Assembly: GCA_001972305.1 (NCBI GenBank)
Contig: BDDD01000724.1
Coordinates: forward strand, 62,001-126,000
Source: Cephalotus follicularis
Lineage: Eukaryota; Streptophyta; Magnoliopsida; Oxalidales; Cephalotaceae
Direction of reading: 5' to 3'
DNA length: 64,000 nucleotides
A program made the translations under genes and the position numbers. Numbering within the stretch: position 1 is the stretch's first letter; every line of letters begins with the position of its first letter. Of the stretch, positions 5,049 through 59,567 are shown one piece after another. The notes below the pieces were generated by a model, which worked only from the letters and a program-made list of their open reading frames with translations, searched no databases and had not been told where the DNA came from.

Positions 5049-5471
5049 TGTTCACTTAAAAAGAATGTTTTAAAATTTATAGCCGCAAGTGCACGGATCA
5101 TGCAGTAACGGGTCGAACGCAGGGAAACGTAAACTAGTTGTAATTTATCCAACCTAGGCGAAGTATTGCATTTTTCCAGAAAAGACATCGACTTCTTCTT
5201 GAAAGACGTCGACTTTATTGTAAACCCAGAAAAGACATCGACTTCCATTTGAAAGGAGTCGACTTCTTTGTCCTGTTTTCTGCAGAATTTGACATTTCTT
5301 CAACCTTTACTCTTTAAACTCCAATTTTGCACACTTTGGGGTAATATTCTTGCACTTTGGTCTTTAAACACTTGTACCTGAAAATCATTAAAACACAACC
5401 AAAGTAGTCTATTCCAAGCATAAAAATATTACAAATAATGCATTAAAAATAACACATTTTTATGCTAAACA
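5049..5471 (-). repeat. Athila-type solo LTR in Copia A gag
   Basis: It runs from tgttcac to gctaaaca on the + strand, the same two ends as the LTRs of Athila 1 and 2, so it lies in minus orientation. The 5-bp TSD taacc is perfect (5044-5048 and 5472-5476). At 423 bp it is shorter than its relatives (898 and 1588 bp). It holds a GTCGAC cluster at 5182-5270. Confidence 0.88.
5182..5270. repeat. GTCGAC palindrome cluster (Athila solo LTR)
   Basis: Four units of gacatcgac / gacgtcgac / gagtcgac type at a spacing of about 22-28 bases, twice preceded by ccagaaaa. Flanks match the cluster in Athila 1 (14189-14310). Confidence 0.8.
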
Positions 5472-6329
5472 TAACCCAACCGAAGAGCATAAGGCCAAAG
5501 TGGCCAAATGGTTAAACGAGGATCAGTAGGCTCGATGTTTAGCGATTGCGGGTATGGTCCCGGAATTGCAACGACAACATGAAAAGCTTGATACTCTCGG
5601 CGCCATACTTCTGAGAATGCAGGAGTTATATGGTGCTAGATCTAGAACCCAGCGGTTCAACTTATCCAATCAACTCTTCTGGTTGAAAATGACTGAGGGG
5701 AATCAGTCCATGCTCATGGACTGAAGATGATTGATCTCATTGAGTAGTTGGCTCAATTGGAGCTAATCATGGATGAGGGTTATTACATTGACCTTATACT
5801 TGCATCCCTCCCTCAGACATTCTCCCAATTCATCACAAACTTCCACATGAACAAGGTGGAGTGTACTCTATCTGAACTTGTGGAAATGCTACATAGGGCT
5901 GAAGCCGACATTGACCATGGTAAGTCCAAGTCACATGTGATGATGCTTCCATCTTCTTCTACCCGGATAACCCCCAAAAACGGCAGATCTGCTACATCTA
6001 AGTCCAAGGGTAAAGGCAAGGGGCTGATGAAGAAGAAAGGGAAGAAACCACTGAGAGAAGTGGCCAAGGATGAGATCCAAAATAGGATCCGACAGCTTTC
6101 TGATGAGAAGGCCTGCTATTACTATGGTAAGCAAGGTCACTGGAGATGAAAGTGTCCTGAACTTCGAAAGTTCAATACAGGAGGTACCTCTGGATCAGGT
6201 ACCTTTATGATTGAATCATTTCTAACTTGTAATGATAGTTCAACTTGGGTAGTTGACTCTGGTTGTGGGACTAACATTTGCAACTCTTTGTAGGGCCTAA
6301 GAGAAGCTAGACAGCTCGGTGCAACTGAA

Positions 6330-7330
6330 GCATTGTACTTACGCCTAGGTGATGGGTCGCAAATTCACACAAGCTATGTCGGCATTTTTGAGTTATGTTT
6401 TCTTAATGGGCATGTATTAAAACTCGATCCTTGTCGTTTTGTAAAGAACCTTGTAAGGAATGTTGTTTCACTTTCCTATTTGTATAAGATTGGTTGGATG
6501 ATGACCTTTTCTACATATGGTTGTACTCTTGTGCATAACAACGTTCTTAGATGTGAAGGGCACATAGATAACGGGATATATGTTTTAAATACAAATGAAC
6601 AAATGGCATTAACAATACAAAATGGGACTAATAAAAGACAAAGAGAGATTAATGACATAAACTCTTCTTATATGTGGCATTGTAGATTAGGTTATCCTAG
6701 CGAGGCTAGATTGACAAGGTTGGTTAGGGATGGACTTTTGGACATCCAGGACGTGGAGTCCTTTCCAACCTGTGAGCCATTTTTGATTTGCAAGATGACC
6801 AAATCTCCCTTATCCGGGGTAGGAGAAAGGGCAATGGACATATTGGGACTTGTCCAAACCGACGTTTGCGGTCCAATGTCGGTCAATGCATATGGAGGTT
6901 TTCCCTACTTCATCACTTTTACTGATGATTTATCACGATTTGGGTACGTGTTTCTGATGAGACAAAAGTCTGAATCTTTTGAGAGATTGAAAGAATTCAT
7001 AAAAGAAGTAGAGAAACAGACAGGGAAGCCCATCAAAATACTTTGGAGTGACCGAGGGGGCGAGTACCTATCTGATGAATTCCTAGGTTATCTGAGGGAT
7101 AAAGGAATTCTCTCTCTGTGTACACCTCCGGGAACACCACATAATGGTGTATCCGAACGGAGGAATTGGACCTTGATGAATATGGTCCGATCCATGATGT
7201 CTTTTGATGATCTTCCAATCTCATTGCGGGGTTACGGACTGTAGTCGACAACGCACATCCTAAATCGGATTCCTTCAAAATATGTCCCTTCCACACCTTT
7301 TCAGGTATATAAAGGGAGGAAACCCAGCCT
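6330..7330 (+). mobile_element. Copia A integrase region
   Basis: The pre-integrase zinc-binding part is seen as WHCRLGYPSEARLTRL (about 6676-6723). The core shows DVCGPMSVNAYGG (about 6862-6900), TFTDDLSRFGYVF (6918-6956) and DRGGEY (about 7051-7068), placing two acidic catalytic positions; the PPGTPHNGVSERR block follows (about 7126-7164). The match style is Angela-like. The enzyme would have inserted element cDNA into host DNA; this copy is broken. Confidence 0.88.
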
Positions 7331-7699
7331 AAACCATTTGAGGGTTTTGGGCTGTCCAGCTTATGTGAGAAGGCAAGAGCCTTCTAAGTTGTAGGCATGA
7401 TCTGGTCGCTGCCGGTTTGTAGCGTATCCTAAAGAGTCAAGAGGACACTATTTATACCATCCTAGCGAACGAAAGATTTTTGTTTCGCGAAATGCTACAT
7501 TCCTAGAGAAGGAATACTTACTTGCAGGGACTGGTGGGAGCATGGTGGAACTAAGAGAGTTACCACCTGGTTAAAACCCACAGGATGATGAGGAATTGGA
7601 GGTAAAGTCCTCTAGAGACACAGTTGGAGAAGGATCACAACTTGAGATGGCATCTCAGTTACGCGCTCCTCGAGTAAGGAGATACGGCAGAGTCTCGGC

Positions 7700-10002: not shown

Positions 10003-10938
10003 TGTAATACCCTGGTAATTCGTATATGTGTTTATGAACTTTTATCTGTTTGTGTTGGGATTTTTAAATTGTTTTGTTATAATGTCCGTTTGCCCCATTT
10101 TAGGCCTATGTGTTTTGGGCTGATGATACCAGCCTGAACTTTAGATACGTGGGTATGTGTATGTTTTGGTTGGGCTTATGTTTATATCCCTCTTGATAAT
10201 TATAACTTTTTTTTAAAAAAAAACATATTAAAAACAATTTTATTTCTTTTAAAATTCTATTTCCCTTTTCCTTTATTTAAAATTTCCTTTATATCCTTTT
10301 TCTCCCTCTTTTCTCTCCCTCTCCCGTAACACTCTCTCTTTCTCTTTTATCTCGCACGGTTTCAATCTTATTTCCATTCCTATCTCCTGAAAATCCTCTC
10401 TTCTACCTTATCAATCAGATTTGGTCTCCCATTTTCCGTTTAAAGAGTGACATTGCCATTGTTATATGTTATCTCTCTCCTATCGGCAAAGCGTGTTGCT
10501 AGTTATGCATAACAATGATAGTTTTTGAATCCGTATGTTTCTCTCTCTTGTTTTCCTTTCGTACAGCCATTGTATACCTCTGTTTTGGTGTCTCTGCGAC
10601 TGTGTTTTTGTATCCATCAGGTTGGTTTCCTTTGTGTTTATGCCAAGGTATTTAATCTTGGGTTGTATGTTATCAGATTCTTACATATAGGCTGCTAGAG
10701 TTTTTACTGGTTTTGGTTCCTGTATTTATATATCCTATCATTGTGTTCCCGAGTCAGTTAGAAAGCCTGTTATCATCATGAAAGGGTTGTGTAATCTGGT
10801 TTTTATGCATATGGTTGGTAACTTGATAGAAAATGGGAGTTAGAGATGTATGCATGTGTCCTGGAAATTTTGTATTTTCCTTTGAGTTAACCACTGGTCT
10901 AACAAGATATGTAAATTATGTGTTTTTGTGTTGTTAAA

Positions 10939-11421
10939 TGTTCACGTAAAAAGAATGTTTTAATATTTATAGCCGCAAGTGCAGGGATCATGCAGTAACG
11001 GGTCGAACGCAGGGAAACGTAAACTAGTTGTAATTTATTCAACCTAGGCGAAGTATACCAAATTTGAAATAAACTATCAAAAACTACTCGTAATTATGCA
11101 AAAATAATAAAATAATTGAAAACAGGAAAGAAATAAATAAAATAAAATAACGGACTAAAATAAAACAATAGAAAATAACACGTGCAAATTAAAACTAATT
11201 AAAGCAATAAATAAAACTAAAGAAAATATATAATGGAAAATTGGTTTTAGGGTATAGAAACTCACCATAGATTGTATTGAACAATTCCATGAAGTTGAAC
11301 GATCATACCTTGGTAAACAACGGCAGCTAGGTCTATACGGAGTGCGGCATTGCTGACAAGACGTATGAGTAGTCATGCTAGGTCTATACGAAGTGTGGAT
11401 TTTAATCAGACAAGACGTATG
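10939..11421 (-). repeat. Athila 1 3' LTR part
   Basis: It begins tgttcacgtaaaaag (+ strand view) like the other Athila LTRs and runs through two units of the 54-bp tandem repeat into the assembly gap. Confidence 0.85.
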
Positions 11422-11446
11422 NNNNNNNNNNNNNNNNNNNNNNNNN
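11422..11446. other. Assembly gap (25 N)
   Basis: Twenty-five unknown bases fall directly in a 54-bp tandem array of the Athila LTR. True gap length is not known, so the structure of this LTR-internal junction is uncertain. Confidence 0.99.
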
Positions 11447-11799
11447 ATGCATGAACACAAAAAATATAAGAAACAATGCAATAAAATAAAGAACAAATGG
11501 GGAGGGTTTACCAGATATGATCATGGAGGCTCAAAATAACGAGGCTCATGAAAATCCATGGCCTCCTCAATCAATGCAACTTTAAAATCCAAAAATGTTA
11601 GTGGTCGCTTCCTTTTCTCTTTGAACGCGTCTCCAATACCTGTCTTAGCAAACTTACAAACACCACGTGAAGGCATAGGTTTAACAATATAAGCATCATC
11701 CCAAAAGGATTGCCACCAATAAAATTCATGATCATGAGAACAAAAATAATCACAGCCAACCAACCAATCACACACATTGTCCATACGAATGCACACCCT

Positions 11800-13115
11800 C
11801 CATCATAATTGATCTTGAGTAAAGAAGAAGTTATTTTTGAGGATGGTGTGAGGGTGGGATGGCGTGCTAAGTTTGTGAGTGAAATGGGACAGATCATCCC
11901 ATGAAACTTTTAAAATCGAATCAACGTCCCCATCATCCAACCAACTTAGAATTTCCTTTTGTGTGACCTCCAATTCCTCAAATTCACTCAAGCATTCCAT
12001 GAAGTTGTTATCAAAATCTTCGTCAAAATACGTTTGGTCAGGCATGGAAATTTTGTGAGTGTAATGGGATGGATGATCCCATTCACTATCCGATATTGGC
12101 TCATTGAGCTTTCTTTCTAACCATGCCAACGCTTCCTCATTTTGTAGCCATATCAATCTAGCCTTTTGCTTAGCTTCCTCTACCTCGAATTCCCTCTTGA
12201 AATTGCGATCAAAGTCGATATTAAAATACGAATCAATGGTATCAGGAATCGAGCGAATCACGTAGACATCATCAAAGTCAGATTGATGCTTTCCCAAACG
12301 AAAAATGTTAAAGTCCATTGACGAATTTCCAAAACTCAACTTCATGAGACCATTTTGGCAATTGATCAATGCATTACTTGTGACCAAGAATGGTCTACCA
12401 AGGATACCTGGGATTTGGTCTTTTATGTTTACAACAGGCTGGGTATCTAATACGACAAAATCGTCAGGAAATAAAAACTCACCAACCTTTATCAAAACAT
12501 CTTCAATTTTTCCTCTTGGTACTTTTACCGACCTGTCGGCTAATTGTAATTTCGTGGTGGTCGGGAGCAACTCTCCTAAACCTAGTTGCTCAAAAACTTT
12601 CGAAGGTAACAAATTCACACTTGCTCCTAAATCGAGCAAGGCATGATCGATTTTGGTGTTACCAATTACACAAGAGATTGTCGGGCAGCCAGGATCTTTG
12701 TATTTTCGCATCGTGGGTTGCGAAAACATTGCACTAATGTTGGCGGCCAAGAAAGCCTTTTTCGGGGTCTGAAGGATCCTCTTTTTCATGCATAAGTCTT
12801 TAAGGACTTTTGCGTAAGAGGGCACCTGCTCGATAGCTTCAAGCAATGGGATATTGATTTGAACTTGTTTAAATGTATTGATGATCTTTTCCATTGCTGG
12901 GGCTTTCTTGCTTTGCAATCTCTTAGGAAAAGGAACTGGGGGATCAAATGAACGCTTAGGTATTTCCATTACTTAACAGGATACTGGATGGTTGCGCTGT
13001 CCTAGCGGGGTAGAATTTATCGCGAAGAGTTTGAAGGGGGCGTGCGTCCGCCATTGGTCTTGGTTGATGAATTCTTTCTAAGCGATTATTTGGACCATGC
13101 ACCCAATCGGTCATA
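11800..13115 (-). mobile_element. Athila 1 gag and protease-like region
   Basis: The reading on the minus strand holds the Athila protease signature DLGASVNLLPSKVFEQLGLG (about 12585-12644) and the ...GILGRPFL block (about 12385-12408). Upstream lies a basic gag C-terminal part. The gag N-terminal start, with a primer-proximal PNHRLERI-like block, lies near 13030-13100 and matches Athila 2. The 388-residue open stretch is the longest in this copy. RT and integrase are absent. The element is incomplete. Confidence 0.8.
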
Positions 13116-13584
13116 AACTAACACTAGGAATCCTAAACTAATGGTAGAAATTAACCTAGCAAAATTAGGGTTTGTTTAAAGCTTATGCAAAGATTATGAG
13201 AATTTGTTTGTAAAGCTTATGCAATTCCCTAATTTAAACTAAGCTAACGGAAACACAAAGGTCAAGGCAAGAAACCTAATTTATCTAAGGTTAGAAAATT
13301 ATTAAGGATTATGCAATGAGATTAAAATGTTGTTAAAAATTATCCTGAACCTATTTAAACTAAATTAGAATTGTTAGAAAAACACAAAAACAGAAAATAA
13401 AAGTAAAAATAAAAATAATAAAAACTAAAAATTAACGTAGAGCACACACTAATAAACTAATTATTCTAAATAACACCAATGAAAGCAGAAAAAATCACAG
13501 TAATTTAAACCAATTTTTTTTTTTTGAATTAAATCTAAACTAAATACTACAAATCAGTTAAATAAATTTAAACTAATTTAAACC

Positions 13585-13605
13585 GTCTCCCCGGCAACGG
13601 CACCA
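13585..13605 (-). promoter_or_regulatory. Athila 1 primer-binding site
   Basis: On the minus strand this reads tggtgccgttgccggggag, the tggcgccgttgccgggga-type site typical of Athila/Tat elements. It lies a few bases inside the 5' LTR end at 13612. Confidence 0.85.
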
Positions 13606-13998
13606 ACAACTTGTTCATGTAAAAAGAATGTTTTAACATTTATAGCCGCAAGTGCACGGATCATGCAGTAACGGGTCGAACGCAGGGAAACGTAAACTAG
13701 TTGTAATTTATTCAACCTAGGCGAAGTATACCAAATTTGAAATAAACTATCAAAAACTACTCGTAATTATACAAAAATAATAAAATAATTGAAAACAGGA
13801 AAGCAATAAATAAAATAAAATAACGGACTAAAATAAAATAATAGAAAATAACACGTGCAAATTAAAACTAATTAAAGCAATAAATAAAACTAAAGAAAAT
13901 ATATAATGAAAAATTTGTTTTAGGGTATAGAAACTCACCATAGATTGTACTGAACAATTCCATGAAGTTGAACGATCATACCTTGGTAAACAACGGCA

Positions 13999-14153
13999 GC
14001 TAGGTCTATACGGAGTGCAACATTGCTGACAAGACGTATGAGTAGTCATGCTAGGTCTATACGAAGTGTGGATTTTAATCAGACAAGACGTATGAGTAGT
14101 CATGGTAGGTCTATACGAAGTGTGTTCGTAGCGACAAATCGTATGAGTAGACT
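13999..14153 (-). repeat. 54-bp tandem repeat in Athila LTR
   Basis: Almost three copies of a unit beginning gctaggtctatacg and ending gtatgagtagtcat. Because 54 is a multiple of three, a spurious open frame with HTSYRPS repeats results. The same array occurs at 19057-19210. Confidence 0.85.
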
Positions 14154-14188
14154 CCGTTGAATTAAGCTCCATTTATTCACCAACTCTA

Positions 14189-14310
14189 AAAGACGTCGAC
14201 GCGATTGTGTAAACCCAGAAAAGACATCGATGTACATGAAAGACATCGACGCATTTGATGAAAGCAAGAAAAGACATCGACTTCTTCTTAAAGGCATCGA
14301 CGCTTTTGCC
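14189..14310. repeat. GTCGAC palindrome cluster (Athila 1 LTR)
   Basis: Five units of gacgtcgacg, gacatcgatg, gacatcgacg, gacatcgac and gcatcgacg type, with cccagaaaag before the second. It is followed by tttgccctgttttctgc, as after the cluster of the 5049-5471 solo LTR. Confidence 0.8.
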
Positions 14311-14616
14311 CTGTTTTCTGCATAATTTGGCATTTCTTCAATCTTGACACTTTTAACTCCAATTTTGCACACTTTTGGGTAGTATTCTTGCACTTTGGTG
14401 ATTAAACACTTGTACCTGAAAATCATTAAAACACAACCAAAGTAGTCTATTCCAAGCATAAAAATATCACAAATAAAACATTAAAAATAACACAGTTTTA
14501 TGCTAAACATTAAACATCATAAAATGTCATATATAAACGTGTATAAGCCTCCGATATGGTGTTAGTCAAGTTTGGACAGTTTTTGCATTGAAATTTCTAA
14601 GTTTCTGCTGTTATGT

Positions 14617-14845
14617 CGTCCGGAATAGTCGGCTGTTCTTATTGACAGTCTGCTGTCTAGCCTTGTGTAGTCGGTTGTCTGTATGAATCAGTCCACTGCC
14701 TTGCTTTGCACAGTCGCCTGGGCCTCTGTCACAGTCGACTACCTGCAGTCTGTTTTGAGTATTCGACTGGTCCTGTTGATTAGTCGACTGCCAAGCTTCC
14801 ACAGTCGGCTGGAGCTCTGTAACAGTCGGCTGTTTTGCCCAGAAA
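14617..14845. repeat. GTCGAC palindrome cluster (H1)
   Basis: About nine units of cagtcgactg type, many decayed to gtcggctg, spaced 20-35 bases, ending in ttttgcccagaaaatt. Matches the H2 cluster in position within the LTR. Confidence 0.78.
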
Positions 14846-15413
14846 ATTCTTATTTTCATTTGTTTTGATCCGTTTTTTGTTCGAATCAATCTGGGTCTGT
14901 TCTAAACACTGTAATGAATCTGTTTTATGTTTCTAATGATTCTCAGACCCTTATATGAATGGTTTTGTGTCTTTAGAGTGTTGTGCTTCAAATGAGAGTT
15001 TGAATTAACAATCTTTTCGTAAGTACTTTTGTGAACGCATAAGGTACAGATTTCTAGGGCTCTTTGGCCATCTAGTTTTATCGAACGAAAATCTGTTTTG
15101 CTTTTATGATATGTTTTTCGTTTTATGAACTTGGTTATGAAATTGATATGTTCTGGAAAATAAAGTCGGTTTTGACATTAAACAAATTTAACGTTCCTGA
15201 CTTTATATGTATGTTACGATATGTTATGAAATGATCATCTCTTTATGGTGGAAAATAAATGAGTTGATGTTCAAATTATGAAATGTATGTTATGATATCG
15301 TTTGGCAACGATTTTTTTTGAATATGTCTTGATGAAGCATATTTTATGTGTTTAAATTGACTTTGATATATCAAAGTTTTGGAAATGATAAAAATATTGA
15401 GTATTTGTACCCA

Positions 15414-15433
15414 CCTATGGGGCGTACCATAGG
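15414..15433 (+). other. Conserved Tekay LTR hairpin (H1)
   Basis: Perfect stem CCTATGG/CCATAGG with loop ggcgta. It also occurs in H2 (29087-29106) and, with a compensatory A-T closing pair, in G2 (53069-53086). It is followed by a conserved ggcacgggga...gtgtgat block. Confidence 0.65.
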
Positions 15434-16475
15434 CTTTTCGTAGGCCTGGCACGGGGACATGACACTTCCGTAGCGGTGTGATTAGTCTACGACGTCTCTC
15501 TATGTAACGACCCAATCCCGAAACCTGAGCCATTACAAGAAACTAGGATGACTTTAACCATAACCCATGGCACAAACTGGTCATAAAAACTTCCTTCTCT
15601 CATCTACTCCTTCATATCTTTATTTTTTTTCCAAGCACAGCACAAGAGCATAGGACTGGACGTCCACCTGCCCCTCGGCTACCCACTGCAGCGGACTGGC
15701 GCCACGCGCCAAGGTCTTGCCTATCCTCTTCCTCCGCGGCAGAGGACCAGACCTACAACAACTTGGACATAGCATTCATGCATTCACACATACATGATAA
15801 AGGAAAGAGTAGAATGAGACAGTCATTTTCATAGTGGTTCGGCACATAAAATGCCTACGTCCACTTCCTCAATCATCTATGACGTTCCACTAGTATGAAG
15901 TTCATTACATGCAGGGTTACATAGCTTAGAAAACACTGAGAATGAAAGGATAGCCACGCAGGCCATACATAGCATAGAAGCCGCACCAGACTTCATTCAT
16001 TCAAGGGAGCTATGCCAAACCAGGAGCCACTACTCAACAAAACCCGAGGAGAGCACCCCAAGGATGTATTATAAAAAGGAGCAGAGGACTTCAACGAGCG
16101 GAGGGCCCCAATTAACTGTTTCATTAAATCATTAACACTGTCTTCCAAAACACCAATACGCACCGTATCACTTAGACCCGAGGAGAGCACCCACGTGTTC
16201 TATGCGTGATCACTTAACATTGTCTTGGTCTAAGGTCAGAGGAAACAGTTCCTCCACAGACCTTCTCCTCTGCCCTTCTGCAAGGAGCGCTTCTTACCAT
16301 GATCAATGTCTGAAACCCCTAGGCATCCACAGACCGTTTTCCCTCTAGACCCTTGATCACCACCTATGCAATATGCCAGACGAGCACCTCCTGCAACATG
16401 TCAGACGACGACCTTTGCAACATATCAGACCACAATGCCAGACCACAAGTATTGCAAGGTACTGGGCTACATGTC

Positions 16476-16908
16476 TGTTCACGTAAAAAGAATGTTTTAA
16501 AATTTATAGCCGCAAGTGCACGGATCATGCAGTAACGGGTCGAATGCAGGGAAACGTAAACTAGTTGTAATTTATCCAACCTAAGCGAAGTATACCAATT
16601 TTGAGATAAACTATCAAAAAATACTCCTAATTATGCAAAAATAATAAAACAATTGAAAACAGGCAGGAAATAAATTAAATAAAATAACGGATTAAAATAA
16701 AATAATAGAAAATAACACGTGCAAATTTAAACTAATTAAAGCAATAAATAAAACTAACGAAAATATATAATAGAAAATTGGTTTTAGGGTATAGAAACTC
16801 ACCATAGATTGTATTGAACAATTCCATTTAATTGAACGATCATACCTTGATAACCAACGGTAGCTAGGTCTATACGGAGTGCGGCATTGCTGACAAGATG
16901 TATGAGTA
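16476..16908 (-). repeat. Athila 2 3' LTR part
   Basis: It matches the first 430 bases of the 18670-20257 LTR (+ view) almost exactly and includes one unit of the 54-bp repeat. Confidence 0.86.
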
Positions 16909-16909
16909 G

Positions 16910-18018
16910 GAAGGTTGTCCCGAAAAGTGTGGAGGTGGGGCACCAACGCTAGAAGGCTGCCCCGAAAAGCTAGATTGTCCTCGCATGTTTTGTCCTTGAC
17001 TCCATGAGAAGTTTGGGTGATTTCGCCAACCCGGATTGTAAGTGTGAGTATGCGGGTTGTATTGATTCATAGCAGACAGATTCTCAGGAGTATATTGATT
17101 TTCAATGTAGCTTTGGCATTCTTCAAGAACATGATTTCGGGACTGACACCAAGAACACATTGGGGTGCTTTGATCAATTTGATTTACTTGTGTTGAACCC
17201 CTAAGTAATGACTCTATTCTCTTGAGGCGGCTATCTAACTAAGCCTCAAGCGCAACTGCTCCTTCTATAACGTACCATTTACTTGGTAATGCTCTCTCGG
17301 AACCTTGAGCTGACTCTCACTCTCTAGTTCGCTCACCCAAATCTAAGAGGAAATTTCATGCATCATTTTCATCCGTGTACGAGGTGAAACCATCGGGACA
17401 CATAGATTCGACCAATTGCTTGGTCTAGTAGTCTATCCCTTCGTAGATGATTTGGCATAAATGCCACGTGTTCAAACCATGATGGGGACACTCTAAGAGG
17501 AGATCCTTAAAACGTTCCATACACCTAGAAAACGATTCATTTGGTTTTTGACGAAACTGGAGAATGTCATTCCTAAGGTTATTCGTTTTATGAAGCGGAA
17601 AGAATTTCTTTAGGAACGAGACAGTGAACTGATCCCAAGTGGAGATGGAATTAGTTGAGAGACTGTAGAGCCACTTCTTAGCTCCGTCTTTAAGAGCAAA
17701 ATTTATGAATCGCAACTTAATATCATCGTCAGATAGTTGCTGAAGTTTAATGAGGGCACATACCTCCTCGAATTCTCGAAGGAAGAGATATGCGTCCTCA
17801 TTGGGTACACCATGAAAGTGCGAGAGCATACTAATGAATTGTGATTTTAACTCAAAGTTGTTCCCGTTAAGTGCAGGCAACAGGATATTGGATGGTTGCG
17901 CTGTCCTAGCGGGGTAAAATTTTTCGCGAAGAGTTTGAATTGGTCGTGCGTCCGCCATTGGTCTAGGTTGATGAATTCTTTCTAAGCGATGATTTGGACC
18001 ATGAACCCAATCGGTCAT
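16910..18018 (-). mobile_element. Athila 2 gag region
   Basis: Read on the minus strand, this starts with MTDWVHGPNHRLERIHQPRP and continues through a retrotransposon gag core including DEDAYLF-like and LRFINFALKDGAKKWLYSL blocks (about 17680-17736) and the RQKPNESFSRCMERFKDLL block (about 17500-17558). A CX2C...-type nucleic-acid-binding part MCSWCQSRNHVLEEC lies near 17110-17160, followed by an Asn/Pro/Gly/Ser-rich tail. Gag would form the particle. The copy is incomplete, with a few breaks. Confidence 0.85.
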
Positions 18019-18239
18019 AAATTAAAACTAAGTCAAAGAACCTAAGCTAAAGCAAGAAACCTAATCGTTATCTAAGATTAGAAATTTGTTAAAACTTATG
18101 CAAAGATGAAGTTAAAAAGTTTGTTAAAATTTATGCTGACCCTAATTATCTAAGAAAACTTGTTAAAGATTATGCAAATGAGGTTAGGGTTTGTTTAAAA
18201 GTTATGCTGAATCCTATTTAAACTACGTTAAAATTGTTA

Positions 18240-18430
18240 CAAAAAACAAAAACAAAACAAAATAAATAAACAAATATAAAAAATAAAAACAAAAACAAAA
18301 ACAAAAACAAAAACAAAAACAAAAATAATAATAAATAAAAATAAAAATAAAAATAAAATAGTTATATATTAACGTAGAAATGAAAAATTAAAATAAAATA
18401 AAATAAAATAATAATAAATAATCAAAAAGT
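18240..18430 (+). repeat. A-rich simple repeats (AAAAAC)n and (AAAAT)n
   Basis: Runs of aaaaac and aaaat units in the Athila 2 leader. Low-complexity sequence; Athila 1 has a shorter version (13381-13430). Confidence 0.9.
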
Positions 18431-18642
18431 AATCAAAAGAATAAAAATAAAAAATAAAACACAAACGGAACACACACGGGGAAGTAATTACTAACGTAGA
18501 GCACACACTAAAGCAGAAATAAACTAATTATATTAACTAACAGAAATTAAAGCAGAAAACACAAAGTAAAACAAACCAGTTTTTTTTTTAATCTAAACTA
18601 AATACTACGAATCAGTTAAATAAATTTAAACTAATTTAAAAC

Positions 18643-18663
18643 GTTTCCCCGGCAACGGCGCCA
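18643..18663 (-). promoter_or_regulatory. Athila 2 primer-binding site
   Basis: On the minus strand this reads tggcgccgttgccggggaa, the Athila/Tat-type site, just inside the 5' LTR end. Confidence 0.9.
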
Positions 18664-18669
18664 AAAACT

Positions 18670-20257: not shown

Positions 20258-20277
20258 ATGCCAGACCACCATCACTA

Positions 20278-20406
20278 CAAGGTACCGGACAACAAGCCAG
20301 ACCACAATGTATGCAAGGTGCCGGACAACAAGCCAGACCACAACCTCTACAAGGTGCCAGACATCAAGCTAGACCACAACCTCTTCAAGGTGCCAGACAA
20401 CAAGCA
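20278..20406. repeat. 36-bp minisatellite in K1
   Basis: Three full 36-bp units and a part of a fourth, each beginning caaggtgcc and containing aagccagaccacaa. A related unit lies left of Athila 2 (about 16432-16475), so Athila 2 landed inside this array. Confidence 0.88.
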
Positions 20407-20717
20407 CCGCCTGCCCAGGAGCTCGACACTTCAAGGGTACGGACCCCTTCGACGTAGTTTGGCATGTCTACCTTCAGGCATCATCCACAACAGCAAGATG
20501 TAGAATCCCACAACAATTCCACTACCTGCCCGTAGAGAAGCCATGCACTCCTGTCCACTACAGAGTACCAGACCATCCACGGAACAATAGCCCACCACGG
20601 ATATCAAACTATCCACAGATGCCAACACACTCCCAGCACCAGACCAAGTAGCCCGAGGAGATTCATGCCCGAGAAGGCATCTTCAACAAAACACTAGAGA
20701 AGCCACTTCGCTCAGTC

Positions 20718-20864
20718 AACGCCCAAGGAGACCACCACACAAGCGAGGCCTGAGGAGACCATCACACAAGCAATGCCCGAGAAGACCACCACACAAGCAA
20801 TGCCCGAGAAGACCATCACACAAGCAATGCCGGAGAAGACCATCACACAAGCAATTCCCGAGCA
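20718..20864. repeat. 27-bp minisatellite in K1
   Basis: About five and a half units of the type gcaatgcccgagaagaccatcacacaa. Spurious open frames with repeated peptides result. No function is suggested. Confidence 0.88.
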
Positions 20865-42161: not shown

Positions 42162-42178
42162 GGCTGCCTGCGTGCGCC
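42162..42178 (+). other. Conserved leader hairpin, Copia C
   Basis: GGC(T)GC/GCGCC stem with one bulged T and loop CTGCGT, in the conserved gtaataagg context. Confidence 0.6.
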
Positions 42179-42873: not shown

Positions 42874-43033
42874 CTTATGGTTACCATCATGCCACAGCAA
42901 AGACCATAGGGGCCAGCAGGTCGAATCTTGCATCGGATCTTACACGAAGGGCAAGAGGTCCTAAATGTAAGTTGGCGCTCAAGTCTACCTATTTTGGTAT
43001 TATGGTTTGCACGGCCACAATCGGGACCATAGT
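42874..43033 (+). other. Leader hairpins, Copia C
   Basis: Hairpin 1 pairs cttatggt (42874-42881) with accatagg (42903-42910). Hairpin 2 pairs attatggt (42999-43006) with accatagt (43026-43033). Each has one G-U pair. The loops are decayed forms of catgcccacagcaaag. Confidence 0.6.
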
Positions 43034-43217
43034 ATGCTGGATATATTCTGATCCCCACTAGGAGGCGAGAGGCTTCCCGAGTTCCACATAGGAGGTGTGG
43101 AATACGATTAGAATAGTGGGATGAGCCATAATTACTAAAGGCCAAGGATTATGATAATAACATTAATTGGAATAATCTGCTAATACTTCTCTCAATTTTC
43201 TCTATATAGGTTGTTAG

Positions 43218-46200: not shown

Positions 46201-46290
46201 CTTAGCAGACCCATTGACCAATACCTTTAGATATTATGTACTTGAAAGAGTCTTATGTGTGATATGCTCAGGCTGTATGGTTCAATGGCT
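43218..46290 (+). mobile_element. Copia C coding remains
   Basis: Strongly decayed. The best stretch is the RT start, with MDTIYVTQVCNLVNAPKG and NPIGCIYIFKEKIGVNEKVE (about 44958-45075), matching Copia A at 7840-7950. RT and RNase H traces continue to about 46290, where LADPLTN lies near 46201-46221. Gag and protease are only hinted at in 43250-43900. Many breaks. Confidence 0.7.
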
Positions 46291-46298
46291 ATAGGGGC

Positions 46299-46309
46299 AA
46301 GTGGGAGAT
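46299..46309 (+). promoter_or_regulatory. Copia C polypurine tract
   Basis: aagtgggagat directly before the 3' LTR start. Confidence 0.85.
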
Positions 46310-49024
46310 TGTTGAAGTTAGGTGTCCCTACAAGCCATGAGGTGGCTAATTGGGTGTACATATTTGATACATTCCTTAATTGGAATAATCCATGAATACC
46401 TATGGTTGGCTGCATGTATGTACTTTACACTCTGATCCTACATTCTGAGTTCCAATTATGTTCGATTGTGCATATATATTCACAATGGCAAACCTGCTAT
46501 ATGTAATATCCCAAAGGGTCAAATGCGGATCAGTTCTATCGCCATGTCAACTGAGTACACACATAGCGCCCTGTCGCCGAGGGGTTGGATCTCATGCCTA
46601 GAGAGTTAATGAGAATGAGGTCCTTAGTCCCTTCAAACAGAAGTTCCAAGTCATTGGTTCACTTTCTGGGCAATTGAGGAACCGTAAAGACTTGTCATAT
46701 TATGCATGCTCCCTTGTATGGAGGACGACTTCTCTCATTGCTGTTTGGATGGAACTAAAGCAGATACGGGGTCCGTACTAGAGAGAATGACACCGAATCG
46801 ACCCACCACAGGTGACCTATCTGGATGGACATTACCCTTATCGATAGGATCCCTATTATTTTTGGTAGTGTATAGTCTATGGTGAATAGTAGGTCTTAGC
46901 CTATGTTGTATCCTTAGACCTGAGCGGCTGGCATGCATTGTGTAGTGACTGCATGACTTTGATTTCCGCCTTCCCCAGCACTAGCCAGGTGCTGGCAAAA
47001 CGGTTGTCTTTGGGTCATGTGGAAACTGCATTGAGACGTGTGGGCGCAGTTCGTAATATGGAATCATCACACCCATAATGATGGATGAATGGCTCTATAT
47101 GATCTTGACCATTGTTGATTGAAAGACTTGGCCAGGCTTAGGCGGACTGGATATAGGGTGATTCCATGGAGGTCCGCCAAAGTCACATTGTGTTCACAGA
47201 TTTATATGGTCACGGAATATCTTTGGTGGACATTTATCCACACCCTTGTCCGTGGTCAGAGTCACTAGTGATAAGTGTTACATGACACATATGTCGAAGA
47301 CGAGCTTAAAGCTCTTGCTTTCTGTTTATGGACTAATAGACATGGTAATACACGGATCTGGGCGTGATGTGAGTTCACACCTAGGCCATCTTGTGAATAG
47401 TCGAGAGGACTATTAGGATGGTCGTACCAGAACTCGGGATGTTCTGAGAAACTTATCAGTATACCAGATATTGACTAGGCTTTTAGAGTCCTGCCTTGCT
47501 TTGAACATGTTGACACGTGTGAGAGACACATGTCATTTTGTGAAAGGACAACATCTAGAGGATGTTGCTTTGGCAATGATTATTTCATATGCTGGATTTA
47601 GGTCCATGCATTACCACGATGAAATCTCCAAGCAAAGGGTTGAAATTGAATATAGAAGAGAAACGTCTCATCCTAGTCTTGGGCGTTGACGCCATAGAGA
47701 GTATGCGTCGACACCATGGATTCTAGGGACTTTAGGCATTGACACCATGGAGAGCATGCGTCGACGCCATGACAAAGCCTCTGGACATCAACACCATGAA
47801 GAGCATGTGTTGACACCAGACAGGTAGAGATAGTAAGTCTCGTTTGTCCTTACGCGTCGACGCCATTGGTAGGCATTGACGTTATGATAGGCGGATACAT
47901 CACATCGACGCTATGGCGAGCATTACACTGACGTTATGGAAACTAGGGACTTTACGCGATGACGTCATGGGTCATATGGCGTTGACGCATAGACTGGAAG
48001 AGTCAACGCCATCGGTTAGGCTTTAACGCCTACAGGATAGTATATAAAGCTTGAGAGAAGCTTCTTTGACACACAACTCTATTCACTCACTCACTCTCTC
48101 ACTCTCTCTCTCTCTCACACTCTCTCTCTCTCTTCTTGGTCGTCTTCTCTCTTTGACCTGCTGACGTACACGTCAACGCAATAGGTTAGACGTTGACGAC
48201 AATATCGCCTAGTGTAATTTTCTACCGTTTTCAACCATCCTTTCACCCCTTAAAGCTCAATATAGGTGGAGATGATTTGTACCTTTCATCTCATCTTTAC
48301 CTATATAGTTTATAGTGTAGGATTAACCCTCAAACCTCCATAACCATCTTCCTTATGCGTGGATCATGGAGGAGCTTGGAGCTGGGAGCTTTAATGGAGT
48401 TTTGCAATTAAAGTGATGAGGGAGCTCTTGAAGGAAGGAGCCATCACTTGAGGTAACCAATTTCTTGTCTCCCTCTTTGTGGATTTGGATTGGGCTTAGG
48501 GTTTGCCAACCTTAGCCAAACCCAAGATGAATATGGTTTTGTCCTGTGTGTTGAAATTGCTTGTTGCGGGTTTAGCTTGCAATTTCGGGTTGTGGCTCGG
48601 GTATGCCTACCTTGGCCAACCCCCCTTGTTTTTTTGGATGAACCATTGCGATTCCTTAGGGTTAGGGATTGCTCTTGGTTCGGGTTTGTGGGTCAATTGC
48701 CTAGGGATTGTGTGTGTACCCTTAATGCAATTGTTTGTGACCAATGTGAGAGTTTATGGCAACTCTTACTCCAAACCCATTTCTCATTTATGCTTGGATC
48801 GGTTGGTTGGTTTGGCTACATGCTCCATTAGGGGTCCTAGGCTCATTGGGACAATTGCGGACATTAGTCTGGGTTATATGGTAACCCATTACTTGGGGAT
48901 CAATCATTTGATTGAAAATTAAAATTGATCACCCTTCACTCCCAGCGCCCATAATGGAGTTTTTGTTTTGCTTCCGCCGCACCTTTTCAGCCTCACTGCC
49001 TCCCGGGGTCTGGGGTTCCCAACA
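46310..49024 (+). repeat. Copia C 3' LTR
   Basis: From tgttgaagtt to ttcccaaca, 2715 bp, matching the 5' LTR. It includes copy 4 of the A/C conserved block (46908-47010), a GTCGAC cluster and a (CT)n/(CACT)n run (48085-48133). Confidence 0.92.
47681..48205. repeat. GTCGAC palindrome cluster (Copia C 3' LTR)
   Basis: Counterpart of 37351-37846 with about fifteen units. Units differ between the two LTRs mostly by C/T or G/A within CpG. Confidence 0.82.
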
Positions 49025-52260: not shown

Positions 52261-52580
52261 CAATCTGTAACCCCCGATGGTGGGAGCCCTTACAGGTTAA
52301 AATACTAAACCGAAACACAACGGAATATCTAAACAATAGACTGATGCGCAAAACGAATGTGGTGGTCTGAAACATAACTTATAACAAAACCGATGTTTAA
52401 CAAAGTCTAAAAATTTTAACAAATCATAATCTGAACATAACAGGAAACAAAACCAAAATCTGGAACTGTTTTAATGAAAAACCAATCTGATCCTACTGGA
52501 AGAACACAAAAGACCAACTCCTAGATGATCCTCTGACAAGTGGGTAACTCTCATCACATGTTTCCCCCATCCTTTTTAAA

Positions 52581-52626
52581 ACCTGCCGCATAGAAACAAA
52601 AACGCGGCTTAGCAAACCTCAGTATG
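52581..52626 (-). promoter_or_regulatory. Tekay LTR hairpin plus acceptor-like module (G2)
   Basis: Minus-strand order: actgaggtttgctaagccgc, T-rich tract, gcggcaggt. Nearly identical to H2 although the surrounding LTR has diverged. Confidence 0.58.
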
Positions 52627-53068
52627 GATAAGGAATTAAAACAGTAAACGATAAAGAGAATATCTTGAACTTTGGAATACAACAAAGTAACATAGTAAAC
52701 ATTCTTGAAATGTAAAACAGAATATTTAAAAACGAGCAGTTATAAAATCATCATAACTTTACGAATAGCAGAATACCATAATTCAAAACTTTATCTGATT
52801 TCATAATTCTATAACAAAGAATTCTGACATACATACATAAATAGGTGCAAGGGGTTCGCGAGGCCCACATGCTCTGACGAAAAAGTCGTGTACGGCACTA
52901 CACAAACAATCCCAAATACTGAATTTCTGAATTCTGACAATAATTAGAGTATACTCATATGCCTCCAAAGGATCCATATCCTACTCTCAGGATACATATT
53001 TAAAAGAGAGGTCGTAGACCGATCACACCGCCACGGTAGGTCTCATGTCCTCCGTGTCAAAGAACATG

Positions 53069-53086
53069 CCTATGATACCTCATAGG
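53069..53086 (-). other. Conserved Tekay LTR hairpin (G2)
   Basis: CCTATGA/TCATAGG with a four-base loop. The closing pair is A-T where H1 and H2 have G-C, a compensatory difference. Confidence 0.65.
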
Positions 53087-53647
53087 TAGGGTTTTTCTCT
53101 ATATGTTATTATGATAAAACTTTGTTTAATTCTAAAACAATTTTAAAACATACTTATGTAAACTGTCTCCAGACATATCTGAAATTATTTAAAAAGAATC
53201 GTACTTTCATATCAAAATCAAATCAAAATCCGATCGGTATCTGAAATATAACATACTCCCTAAAGTGGAAGCCATGTCCAAACAATAACACATTTTCGAT
53301 AACAGAAAATATGCATATCCATATCTGATGTAATAAAATTTATTTTAATAAGACTATTATCAGAACGAGAATATCTGTATCAAAATATGAGTTTTATTTC
53401 TAATAAAACCAGGAACATAAATCCGTTCAATAAAACGTACAAAATCATCAATTAATGAAAGTTTAATCGAAGCAGTACCAAAGAACGAAGAATCCATACC
53501 TTAGCAGGTCAAAAATCTAAACAATCTAGAATACCGGAAAAAAGCACCCTAGAAGTGTCCTAAACTCCACCACGAATGATATTAAGACCTAAACATTTAA
53601 ACCCAAACATCACATAACATAAAAAGAACGAAACCTCAAAACTGCCA

Positions 53648-53782
53648 TAAAGCGTCGATAGTGTATCCTTAGGCGTCGACGGTTTCATTGAACAAAAGGA
53701 CAAAGCATCGAGTAAAGAGTCGACTGACCAAAGCTCAAGACAGTACAAAGTGGCGACGCTCAAAAGACAAGAATCGACGGTT
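53648..53782. repeat. GTCGAC palindrome cluster a (G2)
   Basis: Units gcgtcgatag, gcgtcgacgg, gcatcgag, gagtcgactg, ggcgacg and aatcgacgg, 15-30 bases apart. Confidence 0.75.
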
Positions 53783-54540
53783 TACGTCGAATACTGAATA
53801 CCAGTTGCAAAAAACGATTTCAAATCTATGGCAAATCTGATTTTTGATAGACACTATGCATAAATGACAACATGAAGGTTCTGTGACATGTTATATCAGT
53901 TCAAAAACTCCAATATATAACTATCTTAGTGCATGATCAAAACTAAAACAAAATTATGGAAGTTTAAAGTAAACATTTTCTGGTTTAAAACAGTTTATAA
54001 GACATATGCTATAACCCACTCTTTCTGTGCACAAACCTTAAAACAATAGTATATACATATGTCAATAACATAATTTCTTTGTTTTTTACGCATCAGTATT
54101 ACAAGTTATGCATAATATCCATGAATGAACATATTAAAGTTATAGCAGAAAACCTTTCTCAACAGGGTCCTAAAACATGATCAACATGAATTCTAGCACA
54201 TCTTTATTGGAAAATAATAGTTGATACATAATCTATGTAGTAAAAGCTACAACTTTTGTTTCGAGAATACCTCCAAAAGACATCAAGATGATGCAGAGAA
54301 ATGCTTGCCAAGTTGCTGTTCGTGTTTGTTAAAAACGTGCAGATGATTTCTCAAAAATGTAGTGATCAGTTTTTAAAACAACAAAACGTGTAAAATTAAT
54401 GTTAAAATAGTGCAACTAATGTGTTTCCTTTCTTGCAGATTCGGTTTCGAACAAAGAAGGAAAATCAGATCAACAAAAATTGCAAAAACCCCTTTTTCCC
54501 TAAACAACCCACCGTCCAAACCGGTATGGAAAGCTGACTA

Positions 54541-54676
54541 AAGCGTCGACTGTTTACCTTAAAGCGTCGACAGTTTAGCACATAAATACAGAATGCGTCA
54601 ATGTCACACGTTTAAGCATCAACGTGTCACGCAGCACCGAAAGCGTCGGCGGTTCTAATAAGAGCGTCGATGCTTT
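54541..54676. repeat. GTCGAC palindrome cluster b (G2)
   Basis: Units gcgtcgactg, gcgtcgacag, gcgtcaatg, gcatcaacg, gcgtcggcgg, gcgtcgatgc, followed by gtgcccagaaaac. Confidence 0.8.
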
Positions 54677-54798
54677 GTGCCCAGAAAACAAAAATAAAAG
54701 AATTTCAAGTTAAGAATCAAAGCGTTCACAAACCATAGCATATATCAAAAGGTATAAACCCAACATAAAACATGTAAGCATAGAAATGGGATATTACA

Positions 54799-55430
54799 AG
54801 TTAGCACCATGATCCGATGTGAATGGGAGAGTTGGACAGTGGGATAGTGGGATGATGAAAGCATATTTCTGCATAATATTTGTTACTTTTAATGAGTGAG
54901 CTTTTTGCTGGGAAAATGTTCGAAGTTCTCTCTGAAAAAGTGTGAGTTCCCTTCTCTGATATACACCAAGCAATTTCTTCTCTAGGGTGGATTGATTTTG
55001 GCTAAGTCTTGTCAATTTCAATTTACTCTCCTTCAGCTTAAAGAGAGTGAGTGAGCATTGTGTGTTTACTTCTTCCTTGTTGGGCTGGAGCATTTTCTGA
55101 ACCAGGGATTTGGAGAACATCAAAGAGGGAGTCTACACAAGCTAGTACTGGCAAAGAACGAAGGAGCCACCAATGGAAGGTATAACATTCATATCCTCCT
55201 CTTTTAGTTGTCATGTTTTTTCCATGCTTGTGTGTCACCATTGCTTGTCTTTGGTGACACCAATTCAATTCATGTGATGACGTGGTGATCATTGTGGCTT
55301 GTGTTTATGCCAAAATGGATTTGTTTTTTGGGTGTCTTTCCGCTGCAATGGTCATGTTTTAAAGTTTTGTTTTGCACCCTTTACACCTAAGTCCGTTTTT
55401 TGCTCCGAAGACGCATTACCTTTTTCATCA
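54799..55430 (+). repeat. Copia B2 5' LTR part
   Basis: Matches the last 600 bases of the B1 LTRs, including the gtgtgtcaccattg...ggtgacacc block, and ends tttttcatca before the primer-binding site. Confidence 0.87.
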
Positions 55431-55747: not shown

Positions 55748-55900
55748 TTAAGCATCGACGCTTTTGGTAGAAGCATCGACGCTTGTCTTACTGTGTCTTG
55801 TTGCGTCAATGCTTTGACATAGCATCGGCGCTTATTTAAGTTTTTATGTTTTGGCGCCTTGGACGTAAGCGTAGACGCCTTCTGGGAAAGCGTTGAGGCT
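55748..55900. repeat. GTCGAC-like palindrome cluster in the B2 leader
   Basis: Units aagcatcgacgctt, gcgtcaatgc, gcatcggcgc, gcgtagacgc and gcgttgaggc. It is the only cluster found outside an LTR. Preceded by gtccagggg. Confidence 0.75.
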
Positions 55901-56198
55901 TTAGTCGATTTATAAATAAATAAAAAATTTCTGTTTTTACAAAAATTGGATTTTTGCATTATGCCGCTTAGAAAATAATGATCATTACTTGATTTAGTGC
56001 GAGTTTGATCAATTAAAAATCCTCAAATTAAATTTTGTAATTGGTTATTATTTATGGCATTTGTTATTTTATGTTTATTTATATTGGTTATAAATTTTAA
56101 GTCTTATGCACAATGGATGGCCTGAAAGGACAAGACCGATTTTATGATTTTTCTTGTGTGGATGAATTTATTTATTTATTATTAATGGTCTGTAATAA

Positions 56199-57011: not shown

Positions 57012-57195
57012 GATTACAATGGATTCCAATCCCCACTAGGAAGTTGGACTTCTCGAGTTCCATATGGAGGTATAGGATACGTTTAGATTAGTGGGAGGAA
57101 GCATAAACACTAAAGACCAAGTGTTATGGTTGTCATATATTTAAATTGGAATAAATGCTAACTCATGTCTATATTTCCTTATCTAGGTTGCTAGA

Positions 57196-58143
57196 ATGGC
57201 TATATCAAATGCAATGTCCCGTATACTTGAAACAAACAAACTTGAAGGGCCCAACTTCAACGATTGGCATCGAACCCTCAAAATCGTCCTTACGGCGAAT
57301 AAAATGTCCTATGTGATGACTGGGGAGCCTCCTTCACTAGGTGAAGATCCTACGACCGAAGAGAGTGAGCGACTAGCCAACTGGCTAGAGGATGGCGACC
57401 AGGCTAGATGTCTTGCCCTCCTTAGGATGACACCTGAGCTTCAGCATCAAAATGAGAAGATTGAGACCTTATCTGCTATACTACTCCACCTTCAGGACAT
57501 GTATGGAGCTGAGCCTAGGACTAAAAGGTTCAATCTCTCAGGTAAACTCTTCAAGGTGCAGATGCAAGAGGGAGCTTCAGTCCATGAGTATGGATTGAAG
57601 ATGGTAGACATGATTGAGCAGCTGGCTCAATTAGGGTTTGTCATGGACCATGATCTGTATGTGGATCTTATTTTGACATCCCTTCCTAGGTCGTTCTCAC
57701 AGTTCTTAGTGAATTTTCATATGAACAAGATAGAGGAGACTCCATCTGAGCTGATTGCCATGCTGAGGACGGCTGAGGCCGATTTTGACTTTGGGAAGTC
57801 AAAGACCCAGTCCCTGCTTCTTCCATATTCTTCTAGGTCTGCCCAAGGAAAGGGCAGTGCCTTGTCTTCCTCTAAAGGGAAGGGCATGCTCATGCCTGTC
57901 AACACAAAAGGTAAGTATAAGAAGAAGTAGAAGAAGAAGAAGGGTAAGCTTGGAGCTAGTGGAAATGTTGCCAAAGATCGGATGAAGAAGTTAGCTGCTG
58001 AAGGTGCTTGTTTCGAGTGCGTTAAGACCTGGCATTGGAAAAAGGATTATCGTGTTGCTGTTGCTGGAGTCTCTGCTGATAACCCGCATGGTGCGAGTAC
58101 ATCAGTTATGTTCATGATTGAACTTAATCTAGCTTTAAATAGT
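57196..58143 (+). mobile_element. Copia B2 gag region
   Basis: The clearest Copia gag in the window. It starts MAISNAMSRILETNKLEGPN and continues with the DWHRTLKIVLTANKMSYVM block, an ELQHQNEKIETLSAIL helix and a Lys/Ser-rich linker. A knuckle-like CFECVKTWHWKKD part follows (about 58009-58047), then the MFMIELNLALNS start of the protease region. Gag would build the particle around element RNA. It is nearly whole up to the G3 insertion, with one or two breaks. Confidence 0.87.
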
Positions 58144-58314
58144 TGTAACGCCCGGTATATTCCTGAATGTAATATTTCATTTATGATGTAATCATTAAAC
58201 TTGATTTAATGAGAATGTTGAGTTTTTGAACTCAAAGGATGCTTGCAAACCCTAATTATGGTCTTGGAGAAGGAATGTGTGTGACAAAGCTTGAAACGGC
58301 ACTGTTTTGGGACA

Positions 58315-58471
58315 AAGACATCCACGTCGTTGGAAAGACGTCGACGCCTTTGGGAACCAGGGCACACGTGATTGCAAGGGCATGCACGTCGACAATGGTA
58401 GAAGGCATCGACACCTTCTCACCCAAAAGGAGAAATGACATCGACGTCTAAGGAAAGACGTCGACGCCCTT
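58315..58471. repeat. GTCGAC palindrome cluster a (G3)
   Basis: Units cacgtcgttgg, gacgtcgacgcc, cacgtcgacaatg, gcatcgacacc, acatcgacgtc, gacgtcgacgcc over 150 bases. Confidence 0.85.
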
Positions 58472-59229
58472 TTTCAAGAACAGCTGTCGTGCTTTTTTGC
58501 TGGCAGAAGTAACATGCAAGGGGATATTGGGGGCTTTACCAGACGCCTTTTCAAGTGCCTTGTGACGTGTTGAGAATGTAGGTGTGTTGCCAGGAAAGCT
58601 CAGAATATGCCCTCACATGGAACATGCAAAGGAATCCTCACATGCAACCTGCAAGAGAAACAATGGTTAAAGAATACAAAAGAATGATGCAGAAACCTGG
58701 AAAGTGGGAGAGAACACGAGGAGGCCTGTTAAATGCCAGAAGAAGAATGTTGGGGGGGAGCCATCTGCTTAAGAATAACCCTCCCCACTTATCTCTCCCG
58801 TTTTAAAAGACCAGAGGAAAGAAAATAAAGAGAACAGTAGGTGTGAGAGCCACCATTGTTGAGCAAGGAAGCTTGGAGCTTGCACACCCACTGCTAGGAC
58901 GAACCAAGGAGCTTCCAAGCCGTACCTGGGGACTCAAGTGACTTCGTGGAATACTAAAAGAGGTGGACTTTCGGTTTCTAACTTGAGGCCAGAAGTAGGG
59001 GAAAGCCGTACTGTAATTTTGAGTTTGATATTTATGCATGGTTTATGATTTTTGATGTATAAAATGCATGATTCTTGGAATGTTATTGTTACTGGATTGA
59101 TGCCATAATATGCTAGATATGTTTTGAATATCTGCATGTTAGTTCCTTGCCTCGATTACCTGTTATTATGCATGATTATGGGTTGTTAGGGCCACTGTTT
59201 GTTAAGTCGTGGGGTAGAAGACGACTACT

Positions 59230-59567
59230 GTTGAAAAAGACATCGACGCATTTTAAAATAACATCGACGTCTTTTTGGTTTTGCCCTGTTACTGATTGAA
59301 AGGGATCAACGTCTATGGAAAAACATCGACGCCCTAGGCTACCTACCTGGATTTGGATGTGAAAGACATCGACGCCTAAGGTTCCTACCTTAATGCATTG
59401 ACGCCTTCAACAATACACTGTCGTCTTAGGGTTCCAGACCATGAGCGTCGACGCGTAAGATATGGACATCGACGCCTTCTGAAGAAGAACGCGCTGACAC
59501 TGGGACTTGGACATCGATGCCTGACGTGAAAGACATCGACGCCTTTGGGAAAGACGTCGACGTCTTT
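59230..59567. repeat. GTCGAC palindrome cluster b (G3)
   Basis: About thirteen units of acatcgacgcc / acatcgacgtc / gcgtcgacgcg / gacgtcgacgtcttt type, spaced 15-40 bases. tttgccctgtt occurs inside, as beside the Athila clusters. Confidence 0.85.

Follow-up and report, generated by a model that had tools for sequence, protein, structure and literature searches.

The long terminal repeats (LTRs) of Sirevirus retrotransposons (Ty1/Copia) bear a palindromic repeated motif (RM), which Bousios et al. (2010, PMC2829016) called Sirevirus-specific with a CGG-CCG core, Tnd-1 excepted. The RM of grape is CGGTCGACCG, which contains GTCGAC, and no statement on the spacing of the motif was met in the available sections of that article. 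According to the available part of a 2023 article, maize Ty3 elements were generally without an obvious peak of such palindrome structure (PMC10760457). Clustered LTR palindromes with hairpin potential were described in 2016 (Genome Res), as relayed in part by PMC10760457. In the present work, arrays of palindromic GTCGAC units were analysed in one 64-kb window of Cephalotus follicularis (contig BDDD01000724.1). The window is the whole stretch of plant DNA under study and is dense in nested LTR retrotransposons. The arrays resemble the palindromes of 2016 in their clustering and hairpin potential, whereas the earlier palindrome, CACCGGACNNNGTCCGGTG, is unlike the GTCGAC unit. In the heat-induced ONSEN element, host-factor sites in the LTR reportedly drive transcription, with one family and a known factor involved; the present arrays are similar in the host-factor sites, which are predicted here, and differ in being carried by several unrelated families.

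Fifteen arrays were located in the LTRs of Athila, of other Ty3-type elements (H1, H2, T, S1, and G3), and of Copia B and Copia C, and in the leader of a Copia B-like element (Table 1). The closest known system is the Sirevirus RM. Like the RM as presented in the available sections of PMC2829016, the arrays consist of numerous short palindromes, each centred on a CpG, that occupy the upper LTR on the upstream side of a TATA-like box, and their outer sequence is family-specific. Unlike the RM, one core is common here to Ty3 and Copia families of a single genome and is arranged in 20–22-bp dyads. The RM position given in the same sections, about 200–400 bp inside the LTR, is shared by T, S1, G3, Athila, and Copia B, whereas Copia C and H2 differ. 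The CGG-CCG signature given there is absent, and the core GTCGAC is flanked by arms of GTCTTT, GCTTTA, TGTT/TGC, or GCCAT. Thirteen RM elements in those sections had at least 8 copies per element, compared with 4–16 units per array here by loose calling (4–5 in an Athila LTR, 6 in a Copia B LTR, 8 in H2, and 15–16 in Copia C). The Sirevirus polypurine AGGGGGAG, described in the part of the literature available as standing in several copies before the 3' LTR, was found in no plus-strand and one minus-strand copy (27689, inside LTR H2), in a search for the exact octamer only among decayed element copies. Because two defining RM features are missing, the arrays were not filed as Sirevirus RMs despite their like place and symmetry; several of the carriers are Ty3 elements. 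Among the matches listed in a literature search, which left most subscription papers outside, no report of GTCGAC arrays or of 21-bp palindrome dyads in LTRs was found.

Exact GTCGAC occurred 38 times in the 64 kb against 5.05 expected from the dinucleotides (first order), which was the highest observed/expected ratio among the 64 palindromic hexamers. Simulated windows (60 runs each) contained at most 10, 12, and 21 copies at orders 1, 2, and 3, respectively, and the enrichment that underlies the original prediction was confirmed. Its count of more than thirty exact copies, nearly all clustered, also held, with 36 of the 38 inside the 15 arrays (3,303 bp in total) and two outside, at 7244 and 21351. 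Its list of separate clusters was revised: those at 53648 and 54541, at 40003 and 41036, and at 58315 and 59230 are in each case two arrays of one LTR (T, S1, and G3, respectively), and that at 55748 sits not in an LTR but in a leader behind a primer site, and holds no exact GTCGAC. Over the window as a whole, CCTAGG and CACGTG also exceeded their expected numbers, with 29 copies against 10 and 17 against 6.3, respectively.

The spacers between units had been described as irregular, at about 12–40 bases. On counting, 45 of the 87 gaps between adjacent units in all 15 arrays were 18–23 bp long and 24 were exactly 21 bp, which contradicts that description. When units were placed at random, in this and the following test with the two outermost units of every array kept in position, gaps of 18–23 bp averaged 12.8 and never exceeded 24 in 5,000 runs. 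When each LTR pair was counted once, 36 of 70 gaps were 19–23 bp long (random mean 7.7, maximum 18, 4,000 runs). The 19–23-bp spacing had a p value below 0.02 in seven of the eight groups tested separately (Athila, 0.0075; H, 0.001; T, 0.007; S1, 0.0077; G3, 0.0003; Copia B, 0.0165; Copia C, 0 of 4,000 runs). The spacing was also evident without unit calling. At 21 bp from an exact GTCGAC, 24 of 72 positions (33%) matched the core in at least 5 of 6 bases, compared with 0.34% window-wide; the rate was 9.7% at 20 bp and 2.8% each at 19 and 22 bp, and offsets of 8–18 and 23–26 bp gave no such match. Near-exact pairs at 20–22 bp numbered 38 in the arrays and 0 in the remaining 60.4 kb, with a maximum of 5 in simulations. 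Among 3,062 hexamers with at least 8 copies, GTCGAC ranked 16th overall and first among palindromes for this type of periodicity. Ten of the 15 hexamers above it peaked at 21 bp, being shifts or variants of the unit, and the other five were different words with different offsets. The order of the gaps was 21, 29, 21 in Athila; 21, 26, 20, 32, 21 in Copia B; 21, 31, 21, 27, 21 in T; and, by loose calling, 20, 22, 21, 28, 21, 21, 20 in H2. The building block of the arrays is a dyad of palindromes 20–22 bp, about two helical turns, apart. Tight helical phasing of the longer gaps was considered and rejected, as it was not seen.

The relatedness of the LTRs was examined by aligning 66 region pairs with the units masked, on provisional LTR borders. 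Only H1–H2 (142) and B1 with the region 54300–55430 (112) scored clearly above the control maximum of 34, and H2–T (35) and T–leader (34) were borderline. The LTRs of Athila, Copia B, Copia C, and the other Ty3 elements gave no mutual alignment above the control level, and therefore four backgrounds carry the site. With exact borders, T and H2 have their 3' LTR halves in common (pieces at 63–74%), and G3 and S1 have one 50-bp stretch in common at 92%, including 35 bp that are exact; weak matches of T or S1 to other LTRs partly coincide with the arrays themselves. The 35-bp block lies at 60291–60325 (plus) in G3 and 38995–39029 (minus) in S1, at LTR positions of about 2,150 and 2,260 and in the same sense. 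Of the LTR families that had been counted as unrelated, at least five, the Ty3 ones other than Athila are not all independent. The sharing might be explained by module exchange, through template switching or conversion, or by old Ty3 LTR heritage, in place of repeated selection. We regard such an origin as unlikely, although the related pairs T–H2 and G3–S1, with their similarly placed arrays, favour it. The failure of the masked LTRs to align across the four backgrounds argues against it, and the template switching that had been proposed is not supported for long tracts; transfer of single 18-bp units between families is possible.

Within the LTRs, unit starts of the first array lie at positions 128–249 in T, 160–243 in S1, and 197–317 in G3, and those of Athila also fall within about 128–317. 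Unit starts of the second array lie at 1,021–1,140 in T, 1,194–1,277 in S1, 1,099–1,413 in G3, and 1,114–1,267 in H2, which is without a first array. Those of Copia B and Copia C are at about 366–486 and 1,370–1,850, respectively. We read the similar placement in T, S1, G3, and H2 as a probably ancient layout that has outlasted change over most of the LTR.

The arms outside the core differed by family. Read outward, the arms of Athila had the consensus GTCTTT or TTCTTT, those of Copia B GTCTTT, and those of G3 GTCTTT and GCCTTT. Each of the T arrays had GCTTTA and the Copia leader had GCTT, whereas the consensus was TGTT for S1 and H1, TGC for H2, and GCCAT for Copia C. Arms were alike between the paired arrays within G3 (r of 0.94), T (0.87), and S1 (0.77), and across families the correlation was 0.80–0.96 for Athila–Copia B and 0.74–0.94 for Athila–G3. 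These three families have the 18-bp palindrome AAAGAC-GTCGAC-GTCTTT in common, which extends beyond the core and is a point for exchange or descent. The arm class differs, however, in related LTRs (T/H2 and G3/S1) and matches in unrelated ones, which is a point against both. Arm pairing in the 36 exact units was 0.48 and fell to 0.36 when right arms were swapped between families, with 0 of 5,000 swaps reaching 0.48; in this test and in the variant tallies below, the 54541 array was classed as Copia (Bp) and not as T. The palindrome is renewed at the family level, not unit by unit. The earlier claim of arms that differ by family and yet stay palindromic was accordingly upheld at that level, by consensus and swap test alike; the ca/tg arms given for 53648 and 54541 were mistaken, the actual arms being TAAAGC/GCTTTA.

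Variants of the core were also tallied. Copia C holds 11 of the 12 array copies of GTTGAC/GTCAAC, and the central CpG is therefore mostly kept elsewhere. GTCGGC/GCCGAC, which is not a CpG-decay product, was found 8 times and only in H, S1, and the 54541 array. CpG decay was thus insufficient as the origin of all variants. The one-sided variants ATCGAC and GTCGAT stood at 8:0 in G3, 5:0 in Athila, and 0:4 in Copia B; a constant strand bias relative to transcription was rejected, as the bias is family-specific and unequal in the sense direction. On the plus strand, CCCAGAAA occurs six times, each time within or beside an array (5225, 14214, 14838, 28468, 40123, and 54680). Three opposite-strand copies (23747, 36336, and 46663) lie off the arrays, giving 6 of 9, and CCCAGAAA was rejected as a constant array companion; it is perhaps a companion motif, found after the fact.

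Spacer-centre identity was low in H (0.33, 12 spacers), Copia C (0.26, 5 spacers), G3 array 2 (0.38, 7 spacers), and the two T arrays (0.22, 2 spacers; 0.37, 3 spacers), and was 0.46 over 5 spacers in the second S1 array. Carriers with the low values (0.22–0.38) keep the 20–22-bp spacing although the likeness of their spacers is near chance. Under exchange or descent, drift would lose this spacing once the spacers had diverged.

The folding of the array segments was compared with that of dinucleotide shuffles, and 7 of 8 folded better (z of -2.6 to -9.7), the eighth having a z of -0.8. This result suits the proposal that array transcripts fold into hairpins feeding small RNAs and that methylation is directed to the elements by their palindromes, as put forward for maize Sireviruses, whose palindromes coincide with small RNAs according to the available part of PMC10760457. 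When the units were kept and the spacers alone were shuffled, however, none of the 11 arrays folded better than expected (z of -1.4 to 1.7). The hairpin potential is explained by the units alone, and selection on RNA structure was unsupported beyond the units. The 20–22-bp spacing has no evident meaning for hairpins, and a site purely harmful to the element should be lost. The Sirevirus RM arrays form a CpG island. In the present arrays taken together, the CpG observed/expected ratio was 1.16, compared with 0.59 for the rest of the window; those of H and S1 reached only 0.64–0.83, so that the arrays are not uniformly rich in CpG. Silencing is a possible reason for the arrays, with nothing gained from the folding test, and we consider it improbable as their explanation.

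We consider it probable, with modest confidence, that the arrays serve the LTR promoters as cis-regulatory modules (enhancers or operators) for a putative host dimeric DNA-binding factor. The original suggestion of a dimeric protein gained support as a constraint at the DNA level, from the 20–22-bp spacing in seven of eight groups, the diverged spacers, the family-wise arms, and the similar LTR positions. Each palindrome would be bound by a dimer, as the symmetry of the sites suggests, and two dimers would bind cooperatively on the same helix face, as suggested by the distance of two helical turns. Repetition of the dyads suggests cooperative or additive binding, by which occupancy would be raised. 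The factor would control LTR transcription, a step suggested by the arrays of Copia C and H2, which sit upstream and/or shortly downstream of TATA-like boxes. We assign the putative protein to the host on the ground that elements of different superfamilies have the site in common, and each arm class may be recognised by its own paralogue within a single protein family. Because active element lineages retain the sites, the protein would more probably favour their transcription, in some tissue or stress, than impair it, and we infer activation rather than repression. The unit variants fit RYCGAC, the consensus of DREB/CBF, which is a tentative candidate for the factor.

A wider interpretation is offered more tentatively. 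The arrays may form a common cis-code in one genome, in which unrelated Ty1/Ty3 elements would carry dyads of the same 18-bp palindrome two turns apart at set promoter places. One small host protein family would read them, with the paralogues chosen by the arms. Related LTRs would then switch arm class while the array stays, like a change of address. If the same phased site recurs across superfamilies, many retrotransposons would depend on, or be caught by, a single host factor, and the waking or silencing of whole transposon sets would become testable. The spacing rule (core, about 15 bp, core) makes such arrays easy to look for in other genomes of any kind.

Several observations weigh against a regulatory role. 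The leader array taken alone was not significantly spaced (p of 0.19), the gaps between dyads were mostly 25–33 bp and not tightly phased, and the TATA-like boxes were identified by simple pattern matching. The GTCGAC array is not universal, since one Copia LTR that is related to C (1344–3151 with 23322–25143) has none. Right-arm swaps within families did not lower pairing in the 36 exact units (p of 0.74) and barely lowered it in a looser set of 83 (p of 0.035); the expected arm-to-arm covariation was thus found between families and not in single units within them. Spacer-centre identity was high in Athila (0.63, 3 spacers), Copia B (0.93, 3 spacers), and S1 array 1 (0.78, 2 spacers), and unit duplication therefore contributed. 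These alike spacers, together with the one-sided variants that run in families, would fit plain minisatellite growth, by which a functionless 21-bp repeat arose and expanded inside the LTRs. Such growth is very unlikely to account for the arrays: core and period are identical in unalignable LTRs, the spacers are unlike in H, Copia C, T, and G3 array 2, and gaps of 25–33 bp alternate with 21 bp in several families.

The arrays and their carrier elements were located by primer sites, terminal motifs, and target duplications (Table 1). LTR ends were read from terminal motifs, with target duplications only for the Athila, H2, S1, and Copia C insertions and for the element 10003–23321; the ends of the G3 LTR and the outer end of the T LTR were inferred from such motifs. 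Family names are based on primer type and Pfam domains, and the Ty3 label of H and S1, which are solo or broken, on terminal motifs and matches to T and G3. The strand of H2 was inferred from its TATA-like box and its match to T.

Table 1. Array-bearing LTRs and elements in the window, with positions counted from its first nucleotide
Feature	Position	Strand	Details
Athila solo LTR	5049–5471	minus	Target duplication TAACC; array of 4 units 5187–5263
Athila element	10939–14509	minus	Target duplication TTAAA; 5' LTR 13612–14509; tRNA-Asp-type primer site 13605
Array in 5' LTR of Athila element 10939–14509	14195–14301	minus	5 units
Array H1, decayed	14615–14830	plus (inferred)	Ty3-type LTR split by Athila insertion
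Ty3-type element carrying H1	10003–23321		Ends TGTAATACCC and GGGTGTTACA; target duplication TTGTG
H2 solo Ty3-type LTR	27188–30144	plus	Target duplication TCTTT; TATA-like box 28202; 8-unit array 28301–28459
Array in first Copia B LTR (about 25747–26998)	26112–26237	plus	6 units
Array in second Copia B LTR (about 32702–33957)	33081–33204	plus	6 units
Copia C element	35985–49024	plus	Flanked by GTGAG
Array in Copia C 5' LTR (35985–38662)	37355–37841	plus	Both sides of TATA-like box 37712
Array in Copia C 3' LTR (46310–49024)	47685–48197	plus	
S1 solo Ty3-type LTR	38672–41288	minus (inferred)	Target duplication GTATC; arrays 41041–41115 and 40007–40115
Ty3 LTR T	about 52266–54798	minus	Primer site 52260; arrays 54545–54671 and 53654–53778
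Weak array in leader of Copia B-like element	55754–55909	plus	Behind primer site 55432; no exact GTCGAC
G3 Ty3 5' LTR	58144–60712	plus	Primer site 60717; arrays 58340–58465 and 59242–59561

The Ty3-type element carrying H1 interrupts a Copia LTR, and the longer Athila element is nested within it. S1 was inserted within the tRNA primer site of Copia C (junctions 38664–38676 and 41283–41298, target duplication GTATC), and the primer site was lost because of this insertion. Pieces of gag and integrase sit between the two Copia B LTRs, T is adjoined by gag and protease on the minus strand, and the G3 LTR precedes an open gag–protease–reverse transcriptase frame starting at 60797.

Three scans of viral contigs were made for relatives: 20 stretches matched in one scan and none was confirmed by tblastn, L001 and L002 held 5 and 3 GTCGAC in 14.8 and 14.5 kb without a comparable array in a second, and nothing was found in a third. 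The Ty3 frame 60797–63154 was without a close relative (best identity 48%), with no Cephalotus among the best 120 of 233 matches. In a sequence search with the gag frame 57187–57927, 48 of 52 matches were named Cephalotus follicularis, with 60–90% identity over 25–64% of the query, which suggests Cephalotus or a relative as the host. On the plus strand, 17474–17580 matches the plant small nucleolar RNA family R71 (46.7 bits, cut-off 40) and overlaps a minus-strand gag frame (17425–18021).

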